This document shows positions 49,222-52,694 of a stretch of 64,000 nucleotides of DNA, piece after piece. The notes below the pieces were generated by a model. The model did not search any database. It saw only the letters and a list, made by a program, of their open reading frames with translations, and was not told the DNA's origin. Source of the DNA: Methanohalophilus mahii DSM 5219 (lineage in GTDB: Archaea > Halobacteriota > Methanosarcinia > Methanosarcinales > Methanosarcinaceae). The translations under genes and the position numbers were made by a program. The stretch lies in NCBI RefSeq assembly GCF_000025865.1, contig NC_014002.1, positions 124,001-188,000 of the forward strand, in the 5' to 3' direction. How positions within the stretch are numbered: position 1 is the stretch's first letter; each line of letters starts with the position of its first letter.

Positions 49222-49236
49222 GCGAAATTATTAAAT
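49222..49236 (+). promoter_or_regulatory. BRE/TATA promoter of the acetolactate synthase leader
   Basis: GGCGAAATTATTAAATAG has a BRE-like CGAAA and a TATA-like ATTATTAAAT centred about 27 bases before the ATG at 49261. The transcript should therefore begin at or next to that ATG, giving a leaderless small reading frame as the first thing transcribed. Confidence 0.55.
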
Positions 49237-49260
49237 AGCATTTTCTCATTTAGATTCTTA

Positions 49261-49332
49261 ATGATAGATACTCCCACAACCTGTGATGTAGTCGTAAATG
49301 ACATAGCAGTAGTGGTAGTACTCGTAGCTTGA
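49261..49332 (+). CDS. Putative valine-rich leader peptide of the acetolactate synthase gene
   Basis: 23 codons, ATG at 49261 and TGA at 49330-49332. Eight are valine codons, with runs GTA GTC GTA (49288-49296) and GTA GTG GTA GTA (49309-49320), followed by CTC GTA; Ile and Leu add three more, so 11 of 23 are branched-chain residues. The next gene makes the precursor of those same amino acids. It sits right at the predicted transcript start. The stop codon lies inside the left arm of a stable hairpin. The composition recalls the E. coli ilvB leader peptide (a string of valines). It is too short to prove coding by statistics alone. Confidence 0.6.
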   Translation: MIDTPTTCDVVVNDIAVVVVLVA

Positions 49333-49381
49333 GCAGGAAATGGAAAACCATTCTGGCTCAAGGAACTATTTCTGGTTTTTT
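49328..49381 (+). promoter_or_regulatory. Hairpin and T-run: candidate attenuator
   Basis: CTTGAGC (49328-49334) pairs with GCTCAAG (49356-49362). Inside, AG pairs with CT, and AATGG (49339-49343) with CCATT (49348-49352) around an AAAA loop: about 14 bp with two small bulges. A T6 run (49376-49381) follows 13 bases later, a signal that ends archaeal transcription. The left arm contains the TGA of the leader peptide, so a ribosome finishing the leader would cover it. Confidence 0.6.
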
Positions 49382-49406
49382 CTGATCATTTATTTTGATC
49401 ATTAAT

Positions 49407-49456
49407 CCATTCTGTAATTTGGGTCCGTTTGGTTTTTCTTTCGTAGATTACGGAGG
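49407..49456 (+). promoter_or_regulatory. Helix that can mask the acetolactate synthase ribosome site
   Basis: TTCTGTAAT (49410-49418) can pair with ATTACGGAG (49447-49455) over nine positions including two G-U pairs, which buries most of the CGGAGG ribosome site (49451-49456) of the gene at 49464. CCATTCTG at 49407-49414 repeats the CCATTCTG of the first hairpin (49348-49355), so the segment CAGGAAATGG (49334-49343) could pair with either copy. That is the layout of a mutually exclusive RNA switch. Confidence 0.5.
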
Positions 49457-49463
49457 AATCAAA

Positions 49464-51185
49464 ATGGAAAAAATGAACGGGGCGCAAGTTCTGGTTAAAT
49501 GTCTGGAGGACCTTGGGGTCAAACACGTTTTTGGTTATACTGGTGCAGCCATTCTTCCGGTATTTCATGCCCTGCATGACAGCGATATCGGAATAACCAT
49601 CAGTTCCAATGAACAATCTGCTGCCTTCAGTGCAGCCGGATACTCAAGATCAGGAGATGAAATAGGTGTTGCCATGGTTACTTCAGGCCCTGCCATAACC
49701 AACACTCTCACAGGAGTTGCCGATGCCTATGGGGACAGCATACCTATGCTTGTATTTGCAGGCCAGGTTCCGGAACACAAAATAGGGACCGACTCCTTCC
49801 AGCATATCAATGTAAGCGGTATTTTCGAGGACGCTGCAAAAAAGGTCATTCAGCTATCCAACAACGATGATATTGAATCGATAGTCAAGGACGCCTATTA
49901 TTTTGCCTGTTCAGGAAAACCCGGTCCCGTAGTCATAGATTTCCCGCTTGATAAACAGCAGAAAAGGCATGAATACAGAGCAAGGGATGTCAGTATATTT
50001 GAGCAAAGCTATCATGACGATCGGCATCTGAGCGACCGGCAATGTGCAGGATTCTATGAATTACTTCTAAACTCTGAAAAACCCCTGCTCTATCTGGGCG
50101 GGGGGCTCAATTCCAGAAGAGGCAGACAGGCTATACATGCCTTTAATGACTATTTCAAAATACCTTCTGTCAATACACTGATGGCAAAGGGAATTGTGGA
50201 CGAGCGGGACGAACTGAACCTGGGAATGCTCGGAATGTTTGGTACACCCTATGCAAACATGATCATCCAGGAAAATGACTTTTTCTTTGCCATCGGTGTC
50301 CGGTGGGATGACCGGATTGCGGAAAAGGTCGGTTTTGGAATCGAAGCGGAAATCGCTTATATAGACATAAATCCCGAGAAAATGCACCAGATCAAGATCG
50401 AACGTTTCCCAAAATTTACATTCATAGGGGATGCTGCCACTGCCCTTGGGGATCTGCTGGCCTATGCCAAAAGATACAATATCAAACTGGATATTGGTCG
50501 CTGGCAAAAACATGCAGCCAAACTTAAACAATCCTGGCCACTGGATTACAACCGTAGTTCAGACAGGATACAGGCAGCTGAGACAATGGGGATGCTGGCT
50601 GGTTTTATTGATGAGACCATGAAGATTACAACAGGGGTCGGCAATCACCAGATGCTTGCGGCCCAGTATCTTCCGATGCAACAGGAGCAGAGTTTCATGT
50701 CCTCAGGGTCATTCGGAACCATGGGATTTGCAGTTCCCACAGCCATTGGTGTACATTATGCCAACCCGAATTCAAAGGTCATTGCCATTGACGGGGACGG
50801 TAGCCTAAAAATGAATCTTGGGGAACTGCATACAATAGCATCTCTGGACCTGCCGGTCAAGATACTGCTATTGAATAATATGAGTGACGGCATGGTTTTG
50901 AACCTTCAGGATGTTGCATACGGTGGAATCCGTACCGGAACCCGGCGAACAAAGGATATTCTCTTTGCAGAAATTGCCCGATCCTTTGGTTTCAATTACT
51001 CAAAAAGGGTTAATAAGAGGAAAGAGCTGCGACAGTCTCTTGAATATTTCCTGGATGCAGAAGGCCCTTCTTTCCTTGAAGTTCTCACAGACAGGGAAGA
51101 GATACTTTATCCAAAGGTTCCTGCAGGTTGTTCGTACAGTGATATGATCATTGGGCCGTATATAAAAAAAGTATCCTCTGATTGA
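49464..51185 (+). CDS. Acetolactate synthase large subunit-like, thiamine-diphosphate enzyme
   Basis: 573 residues from the ATG at 49464, preceded by CGGAGGAATC; an upstream in-frame TTG at 49395 would start inside the leader structures. All three ThDP-enzyme domains are present. The catalytic Glu50 is in SSNEQSAAF, GPAITNTLTGVADAY and PGPVVIDFP follow, and the ThDP/Mg site is GDGSLKMNLGEL to NN. It should condense two pyruvates to acetolactate, the first step to valine and leucine. No regulatory subunit gene (ilvN) is adjacent. Related ThDP decarboxylases cannot be ruled out, since GYTGAAI replaces the usual GYPGGA. An HdrD-like gene follows 69 bases later. Confidence 0.85.
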   Translation: MEKMNGAQVLVKCLEDLGVKHVFGYTGAAILPVFHALHDSDIGITISSNEQSAAFSAAGYSRSGDEIGVAMVTSGPAITNTLTGVADAYGDSIPMLVFAGQVPEHKIGTDSFQHINVSGIFEDAAKKVIQLSNNDDIESIVKDAYYFACSGKPGPVVIDFPLDKQQKRHEYRARDVSIFEQSYHDDRHLSDRQCAGFYELLLNSEKPLLYLGGGLNSRRGRQAIHAFNDYFKIPSVNTLMAKGIVDERDELNLGMLGMFGTPYANMIIQENDFFFAIGVRWDDRIAEKVGFGIEAEIAYIDINPEKMHQIKIERFPKFTFIGDAATALGDLLAYAKRYNIKLDIGRWQKHAAKLKQSWPLDYNRSSDRIQAAETMGMLAGFIDETMKITTGVGNHQMLAAQYLPMQQEQSFMSSGSFGTMGFAVPTAIGVHYANPNSKVIAIDGDGSLKMNLGELHTIASLDLPVKILLLNNMSDGMVLNLQDVAYGGIRTGTRRTKDILFAEIARSFGFNYSKRVNKRKELRQSLEYFLDAEGPSFLEVLTDREEILYPKVPAGCSYSDMIIGPYIKKVSSD

Positions 51186-51254
51186 TATTAGTCCCAAAAT
51201 GTATTAAAGATGGTCTTGATAAAGTATATTCACTCTAGACAAAAAGGTGGACCA

Positions 51255-52358
51255 ATGTATCGTTTTCAGGAAAAGATTGATTCATGTATAGATTGCAAGA
51301 AATGCTGGGAGGTCTGTCCTGCCAACATGGTGACGGAGGGCAACCTTTTTACCCCGCAGAGAAAGATTGGATCCCTTGCAAAGATCGTTGCAGGTGAAGA
51401 ACTGACACAGGATGAGATGGACAATATTTATCTTTCCACACGTTGCGGGGCCTGTGATGATGTCTGCCCGGTCGACATCCCTATTACTGATATTATCCAG
51501 TATGAAAGGGAGTTATTAGCACAGCAGGGCAGAGAGCCTGCCAAGACAACAGCAATATCAAAAAACATTCTTGAGCATAACAGTCCGGGAGCCATGGATC
51601 CTTCAAAGAGATTTGACTGGGTTACCCATGACCTTGAAATAGCCGAAGAATCTGAGATAGCATATATGGCAGGCTGCTGGGTTGCATACAGCCAGCCTGA
51701 TATAGCCAGGTCTACCATTCGTTTGCTCAATCATGCCGGTATCAAGCCGATGCTCTTGAAGGAGGAGAAATGCTGTGGGCTCTTTTTGATTGACAACGGC
51801 CATCTTGAAGAAGCAGCAGAGCATGCCAAAAAATTCGTAGACTATATTGAATCTCTGGGTGTAAAGAAAGTTATCGCATCCTGTCCCGGATGCTACCTGG
51901 TTTTGAGCCGTGAATATCCGGACCTTTACCGTGAATTGAATTTTGAAGTGGAGCATTCACTCAATATTTTCAAAGCTATGATCAACGATGGTACACTCAA
52001 ACCAGAGAAACTGGATTATACGGTTTCTGTAAGGGATGCCTGCCCGGTTAGAAAATCAAAAGATGTACCAAGGGATATACTTTCAAGTATGGGCGTGGAG
52101 ATAAAAGAACTCTTCGATGGCAAACAGGTGTGCTGCGGAGGACCCGCAGGTCTGAAACCCAACTTCCCGGGGATATCATCGGATATTGCCATGCTGTCTG
52201 TTAATGATTACAAAGAGAATGCTGATATGCTGGTTTCATATTGTCCTTTTTGCATGCATCATATCGGCGGTGTATGTAATTCAAAAGATGAAGATTTGGA
52301 TATGAAGGATATTTCAGTATTGCTGGCAGAAAGTGTATTTGGAAGTATGGGAGAATGA
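51255..52358 (+). CDS. HdrD/GlpC-like Fe-S protein with two CCG domains
   Basis: 367 residues from the ATG at 51255, with GGTGG 4 bases upstream; the track of codons back to 51210 lacks a ribosome site. Two [4Fe-4S] ferredoxin clusters (CIDCKKCWEVCP and CGACDDVCPVDIP) precede two cysteine-rich CCG domains (GCW..., EKCCGL, CPGC; DACP, CCGGPAG, CPFC). These match the catalytic heterodisulfide reductase subunit HdrD and related (S)-2-hydroxyacid or disulfide oxidoreductases. It lacks a membrane anchor. A role as an electron-transfer or disulfide reductase unit for the ThDP enzyme before it or the CGGC protein after it is an inference from close spacing (3 bases to the next gene). Confidence 0.87.
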   Translation: MYRFQEKIDSCIDCKKCWEVCPANMVTEGNLFTPQRKIGSLAKIVAGEELTQDEMDNIYLSTRCGACDDVCPVDIPITDIIQYERELLAQQGREPAKTTAISKNILEHNSPGAMDPSKRFDWVTHDLEIAEESEIAYMAGCWVAYSQPDIARSTIRLLNHAGIKPMLLKEEKCCGLFLIDNGHLEEAAEHAKKFVDYIESLGVKKVIASCPGCYLVLSREYPDLYRELNFEVEHSLNIFKAMINDGTLKPEKLDYTVSVRDACPVRKSKDVPRDILSSMGVEIKELFDGKQVCCGGPAGLKPNFPGISSDIAMLSVNDYKENADMLVSYCPFCMHHIGGVCNSKDEDLDMKDISVLLAESVFGSMGE

Positions 52359-52361
52359 ATT

Positions 52362-52694
52362 ATGAAAGTAGGTTTAATCAGATGTATGCAAACAGAGGAT
52401 ATGTGTCCTGCAACAACGGATTTTAAAGTAATGAGGGAGAAAAAACTTGCTTTCAAAGACGTTGAAGGCGAAATTGAAGTGATAGGTGTTGTTTCATGTG
52501 GTGGTTGCCCAGGCAAAAAGGCAGCTACAAGGGCTGCTGAAATGGTCAGACGCGGAGCCGATACAATTGCTCTTGCTTCTTGTATTACAAAAGGTAATCC
52601 AATAGGTTTTGCCTGTCCGCATGCTGAACAGATGAAAGCTGCAATCAGAAAGAAAATAGGTGATTCGATACAATTAATTGATTATACTCATTAA
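52362..52694 (+). CDS. CGGC domain protein
   Basis: 110 residues, the family's usual length, with RCMQTEDMCPATTDF, the namesake CGGCPGKK and ASCITKGNPIGFACPHAE. The ordered Cys and His residues suggest a metal or Fe-S site. CGGC proteins often lie beside redox and corrinoid genes in anaerobes and their function is unknown. It starts 3 bases after the HdrD-like gene and shares its message. Confidence 0.82.
   Translation: MKVGLIRCMQTEDMCPATTDFKVMREKKLAFKDVEGEIEVIGVVSCGGCPGKKAATRAAEMVRRGADTIALASCITKGNPIGFACPHAEQMKAAIRKKIGDSIQLIDYTH

Follow-up and report, generated by a model that had tools for sequence, protein, structure and literature searches.

Does an archaeon use a ribosome that translates a short valine-rich reading frame to set the expression of the acetolactate-synthase-like gene downstream of it? 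This question is raised by a locus in a 64-kb window of DNA (the whole stretch that was analysed), which is part of an archaeal chromosome of 2,012,424 bases. A preliminary description had proposed control by charged tRNA-Val through a translated leader, and this is what we too infer. We consider it very probable that the synthase is under some form of leader–ribosome control. Our main reading, to which we give a probability of about 0.6, is that a ribosome-operated cis switch ties the synthase to charged tRNA-Val, with starvation as the ON state. The gene, its leader and their promoter are as follows.

49228–49237, + strand: TATA box of the leader promoter, TTATTAAATA, matching a TTAAATA-type motif in the orthologous loci
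49261–49332, + strand: leader peptide reading frame, MIDTPTTCDVVVNDIAVVVVLVA followed by the stop codon, found in 47/47 orthologues with a frame length that is always a multiple of three
49464–51185, + strand: acetolactate-synthase-like thiamine-diphosphate enzyme of 573 amino acids, assigned by TIGR00118 score, Pfam domains and solved structures

The enzyme has three Pfam TPP-enzyme domains and the solved structures nearest to it are acetolactate synthases; against TIGR00118, which describes the biosynthetic acetolactate synthase large subunit, it scores 492.9 bits, under the curated cut-off of 538.35. A second synthase of canonical type, 34% identical to it, is encoded elsewhere in the genome, and no small-subunit gene adjoins the gene at 49464–51185, which is a paralogue, other than canonical ilvB. 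Tryptophan at the position equivalent to W574 of plant acetolactate synthase favours 2-ketobutyrate. The canonical paralogue has this tryptophan, which is absent from the aligned intact members of the present family; all of these have leucine instead, making it plausible that the enzyme works chiefly towards valine and leucine. Its biosynthetic role is likewise putative. The best-scoring solved structure also has leucine at this position, and leucine at W574 of the plant enzyme is a known herbicide-resistance change. Among the relatives examined, the genes 3′ of the synthase are not conserved, so the leader is associated with the synthase alone. In this genome, the synthase is directly followed by genes for an HdrD/TfrB-like iron–sulphur protein (51210–52358, + strand) and a CGGC-domain protein (52362–52694, + strand), which do not adjoin it in the other genera examined. 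A free-standing archaeal threonyl-tRNA synthetase editing domain (PF08915; 48602–49012, − strand) is encoded divergently from the leader.

The leader runs for 23 codons from ATG 49261 to TGA 49330–49332 and contains, as first described, eight valine codons plus leucine and isoleucine. The valines stand in runs of three, four and one. Among 631 ATG frames of 15–35 codons on both strands of the window, it is alone in having either VVVV or at least eight valines. We surveyed 186 Methanosarcinales genomes, with relatives from Methanohalophilus, Methanolobus, Methanococcoides, Methanosarcina and Methanohalobium, and found a close orthologue of the synthase (74–93% identity) in 44; a 393-genome sample of the phylum yielded no further orthologue outside the family. 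Genome G148, probably that of the genetically tractable Methanosarcina acetivorans, has neither the synthase nor the leader. A valine-rich ATG frame of 22–30 codons, ending 92–131 nt before the synthase, lies upstream of the gene in 44/44. Three more distant orthologues (66–72% identity; L062, L063 and L066) also have a leader (MLNNSTNYIMTLLVVVVVVLIA, MSNKSADYFLNLLVVVVVVAVLVA and MNNITNLQSVLLLLVVVVLLVA), for a total of 47/47. The metagenome-assembled contigs of these three are labelled Nanoarchaeota/Woesearchaeota, which could mean that the gene has moved between symbiont and methanogen, or that the contigs were mis-binned. The conservation of valine codons and stems that the preliminary description expected in relatives was thus found, in the leader (47/47) and in the pairings described below.

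Each of the 47 leaders has five to nine valine codons. The carboxy-terminal end, V-V-V-L-x-A-stop, is nearly invariant: counted from the stop, valine at −7 and alanine at −2 are present in 47/47 and leucine at −4 in 44/47. Total length and the amino-terminal half vary among orthologues. An in-frame start and stop are retained in all 47 and every indel comes in threes; leader lengths are divisible by three in 47/47, and the lengths of the spacer between leader and synthase fall into all three classes. In two loci, the synthase frame is broken and the leader is intact: L044 (G104:C88, a Methanohalobium MAG) has a stop as its second codon and further stops, and L004 (G109:C2, M. profundi) has one TAG. 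Either recent pseudogenes or sequence errors would account for these. No valine-rich leader was found in 19 regions upstream of the canonical ilvB paralogue. In this genome, no comparable leader upstream of the trpE, leuA-type or hisG genes was convincing, and this kind of leader may therefore be rare.

The TATA box that had been described as spaced for a leaderless start at ATG 49261 is in place, and its spacing is kept in relatives, with a TTAAATA-type box 30–31 nt upstream of the leader ATG in 41/44 orthologous loci. The G content between box and ATG is 2%, and a Shine–Dalgarno-like tetramer precedes the leader in 1/44 only, as opposed to 43/44 for the synthase. Transcription would start at the leader ATG or a few bases before it and, given the box-to-ATG spacing and the missing Shine–Dalgarno site, the leader is probably translated leaderless. 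Between genera, the DNA upstream of the TATA box is 58% identical, against a shuffled baseline of 59%; the segment with the valine run, stop codon and hairpin is 82% identical.

Conservation extends from the leader frame into RNA structure. A structure alignment of 44 leaders gave three pairings, which we call hairpin 0, 2:3 and 3:4, and the 220-nt leader folds at z = −2.9. The elements are listed here.

49270–49277, + strand: 5′ arm of hairpin 0 (leader codons 4–6), pairing with 49312–49319
49312–49319, + strand: 3′ arm of hairpin 0, TAGTGGTAG, made of the valine codons GTG GTA GT (control codons)
49328–49334, + strand: region 2, CUUGAGC, containing the leader stop codon and pairing with 49356–49362
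49345–49350, + strand: 5′ arm of the outer helix of the 3:4 structure (alignment columns 109–113/201–205)
49355–49362, + strand: region 3, GGCUCAAG, common to both structures, from folding and alignment
49376–49381, + strand: T6 run lying between regions 3 and 4, where pausing or termination could occur, from conservation of the U run
49418–49425, + strand: region 4, UUUGGGUC, pairing with region 3 (8 bp in this genome)
49428–49442, + strand: U-rich tract directly past the 3:4 core, UUUGGUUUUUCUUUC, from sequence
49430–49435, + strand: 3′ arm of the outer helix of the 3:4 structure (alignment columns 109–113/201–205)
49452–49456, + strand: ribosome-binding site of the synthase, GGAGG, within a local hairpin (49436–49458) in this genome

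Hairpin 0 joins CUACCAC with GUGGUAG, and 98.4% of its cells are paired across the 44 sequences, departures being mostly G–U. A codon-position test for coding selection was uninformative, because third positions are constrained by RNA structure. The hairpin at 49328–49362 has, as first reported, 14 bp and the stop codon in its left arm, and its folding energy is −15.4 kcal/mol; its seven core pairs, CUUGAGC with GCUCAAG (2:3), are found in 44/44, where three G–U changes and, in L033, a single compensatory change occur. The previously noted T6 run is at 49376–49381. Runs of at least four U lie between regions 3 and 4, 7–9 nt past region 3, in 44/47 sequences (the run is broken in L028 and absent from L062 and L066), and a U4 or longer past region 4 is found in only 10/47.

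The 3:4 structure, in which region 4 lies just upstream of the synthase ribosome site, has 92–94% of cells paired in the family and up to ten pairs changed on both sides. With the distant sequences included, the values are 93.9% and ten two-sided pairs, against at most 58% and five in slid controls; the shuffle control on paired cells leaves shared ancestry in, and a stronger argument is that compensatory changes recur in separate genera. Such changes occur in the outer helix in Methanohalophilus, Methanococcoides, Methanolobus and Methanohalobium; this helix is paired in 44/44, with both sides changed at three of its five pairs. Because region 3 is common to 2:3 and 3:4, the two cannot coexist. 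Mutually exclusive hairpins upstream of this acetolactate-synthase-like gene, as first described, are conserved in relatives in the form of 2:3 and 3:4.

The conserved partners differ in part from those first proposed. The repeat CCATTCTG does occur twice, at 49348 and 49407; its second copy, put forward as the alternative switch partner, is confined to the two closest Methanohalophilus sequences and, in a form with one change, to a Methanohalobium sequence, and is deleted in the other relatives. The conserved alternative pairing is instead that of GGCUCAAG (region 3) with UUUGGGUC (region 4). A helix of 49410–49418 with 49447–49455, said to hide the synthase ribosome site, can form in isolation but is out-competed in whole-leader folds, and such masking of the ribosome site is limited to this genome and those closest to it. 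In the whole-leader fold, a hairpin of 9–10 bp (49436–49445/49449–49458) covers the ribosome site. Another candidate for the conserved OFF structure, hairpin 4, in which GUUUCUU pairs with the synthase start, was also discarded: one of its columns is broken in 5/44, and in those five, the outer helix is kept by compensation.

These patterns bear on three explanations that dispense with a ribosome-operated switch. Given that TAGTGGTAG is fixed at the nucleotide level (identical in 44/44) and pairs with codons 4–6, and that third codon positions show no rise in changes, the locus could encode a structured RNA whose reading frame has no function, such as a riboswitch or protein-binding leader, with the valine run as a by-product of hairpin 0. 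We regard this as very unlikely: such an RNA does not account for the in-frame start and stop in 47/47, the indels in threes, the conservation of valine codons beyond hairpin 0 as well or the leaderless type of promoter spacing, and none of 4,227 Rfam families, T-box included, matched up to E = 1. The conserved peptide and its hydrophobic end would also fit a micropeptide with a function in trans, at the membrane for instance, that has no more than its promoter in common with the synthase. We give it hardly any credence, as the length and amino-terminal half vary, third codon positions are constrained like the others, conservation runs on into non-coding RNA with covariation, and the leader is always in cis with the synthase alone. 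Finally, all support for regulation comes from comparative sequence and folding energy, so the region might be a constitutive 5′ leader conserved by descent. This, too, is highly improbable, because the DNA just upstream of the promoter is wholly unconserved and two competing structures are kept, one of them with repeated compensatory change.

Searched alone, the element follows the synthase. A covariance model (R1) built on the segment from the valine run to the synthase start found it in exactly the 44 genomes of the order that have the synthase (E about 1e-24 to 1e-10), and the other matches were three second copies in Methanolobus and two hits with E above 0.1. The second copies (G135:C1:3141479-3141607, L112; G136:C15:198717-198842, L032/L114; G137:C4:22683-22769, L113) lie, in three genomes, upstream of one gene for a membrane protein that by eye is DUF4386-like. 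They are decaying: one has ATA for ATG and another is without regions 3–4.

We propose a scheme in which translation of the leader, the response to valine, its sign and a transcriptional or translational read-out are all predicted parts. Transcription would begin at ATG 49261 or immediately upstream of it, and translation of the leader would do without a Shine–Dalgarno site. When Val-tRNA is short, the ribosome would stall in the valine run, upstream of region 2, leaving region 2 (49328–49334) to pair with region 3 (49355–49362). When Val-tRNA is ample, the ribosome would reach the stop codon inside region 2 and mask it, and region 3 would pair with region 4 (49418–49425), a structure that the outer helix extends and that lies immediately upstream of the synthase ribosome site. 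The 2:3 structure would be the ON state of starvation and 3:4 the OFF state, which might act by ending transcription early at the U-rich tracts, by setting a helix against the ribosome site, or by both.

Folding models in which nucleotides were masked as by a ribosome are consistent with such a choice. With region 2 free and the last tract not yet made, 2:3 prevails in 38/47; once a ribosome occupies the stop codon, where it had been predicted to cover the left hairpin arm, 2:3 is impossible and 3:4 forms. In the three most distant sequences, 3:4 is favoured even with region 2 free. In nearly all leaders, the main valine run comes to an end three or four codons upstream of the stop. If its footprint is like that of bacterial ribosomes, a ribosome would therefore leave region 2 free on every valine codon except the last. 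Taken together, ribosome geometry and masked folds suggest that ribosome position would select between 2:3 and 3:4, with valine shortage favouring the former and sufficiency the latter.

Which of the two states is ON is a separate matter, and we hold with moderate confidence that starvation turns the synthase on. We assign ON to 2:3 and OFF to 3:4 because of the logic of bacterial Val/Ile/Leu/Trp leaders and because of physiology. Two observations argue against this sign: U runs of at least four follow region 3 in 44/47 sequences versus region 4 in 10/47, and in 41/47 the synthase ribosome site is about 3.2 kcal/mol costlier to open with 2:3 formed, except when the footprint is taken as far as −26, the position of the outer helix. 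The main rival to starvation-ON is the opposite sign, in which completed leader translation, with valine ample, is required for expression. Here, 2:3 and the U run would form a terminator, also freeing GUUUCUU to cover the synthase start, and 3:4 would be an antiterminator that opens this start. Such control would repress a valine-pathway enzyme at valine shortage, unlike the characterised bacterial Val/Leu/Ile leaders. The U4+ run 7–9 nt past region 3 in 44/47 fits a terminator of this kind, although it is broken in L028 and missing from L062 and L066. It also fits that the ribosome site opens at lower cost when region 2 is masked, although part of this effect is trivial, as more masking leaves less sequence available, and the difference is gone under a longer footprint. 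In its favour, too, U runs of at least four are an archaeal termination signal bound by aCPSF1 and underlie termination (PMC8716108), and the ribosome may exclude aCPSF1/FttA (PMC8116511, PMC11616081). On balance, we consider the opposite sign unlikely and retain starvation-ON. Covariation of the outer helix, a third result that tempers the assigned sign, would be unnecessary for termination itself; it suggests that the structure of the finished RNA matters, and hence that the read-out is perhaps translational.

RNA-based control in bacteria has its founding case in attenuation by a translated leader. In Escherichia coli, the ivbL–ilvBN attenuator has a Val/Leu-rich leader peptide before acetohydroxyacid synthase I. 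The archaeal locus resembles it in having a leader with valine runs directly upstream of an acetolactate synthase gene and alternative hairpins downstream of that leader. It differs in its archaeal host and RNA polymerase, the probably leaderless start, a paralogous synthase without an adjacent small subunit, the lack of sequence kinship, a terminator that is not of clear bacterial form, and control codons that lie in a hairpin with the leader's own start. In the E. coli trp attenuator (trpL), a ribosome that terminates at the stop codon covers region 2, and the choice lies between 2:3 and 3:4. The proposed switch would share this arrangement; it differs in the amino acid and the domain of life, in that region 1 is unpaired with region 2, and in that termination is putative.

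Among archaeal processes, the U4+ runs between regions 3 and 4 recall U-tract termination by aCPSF1/FttA as a possible read-out, although this is known as 3′-end or promoter-proximal termination and not as amino-acid-sensing attenuation (PMC8716108, PMC11616081). Ribosome profiling of the related archaeon Methanosarcina mazei in 2024 found upstream ORFs in 5′ leaders to be translated, which are like the small ORF described here; that study makes no mention of attenuation, valine or acetolactate synthase (PMC11456600). According to a 2021 paper, attenuation-type gene control is not known in archaea (Blombach et al.), and our search of the open-access literature, with papers later than 2021 included and subscription papers outside its scope, found no archaeal leader-peptide attenuator. 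Devices of this type are familiar from bacteria; one in archaea, with leaderless initiation, would be a novelty. We put at even odds that this is the first amino-acid-sensing leader-peptide attenuator in Archaea, in which a leaderless valine-codon leader and competing RNA structures would set readthrough against aCPSF1/FttA-type termination.

A valine-codon leader with covarying alternative structures, in at least five genera, offers a concrete, small and testable case. If the proposal is true, archaeal transcription–translation coupling would be tight enough for gene regulation, and the competition between aCPSF1/FttA and the ribosome would be testable on a natural sequence.
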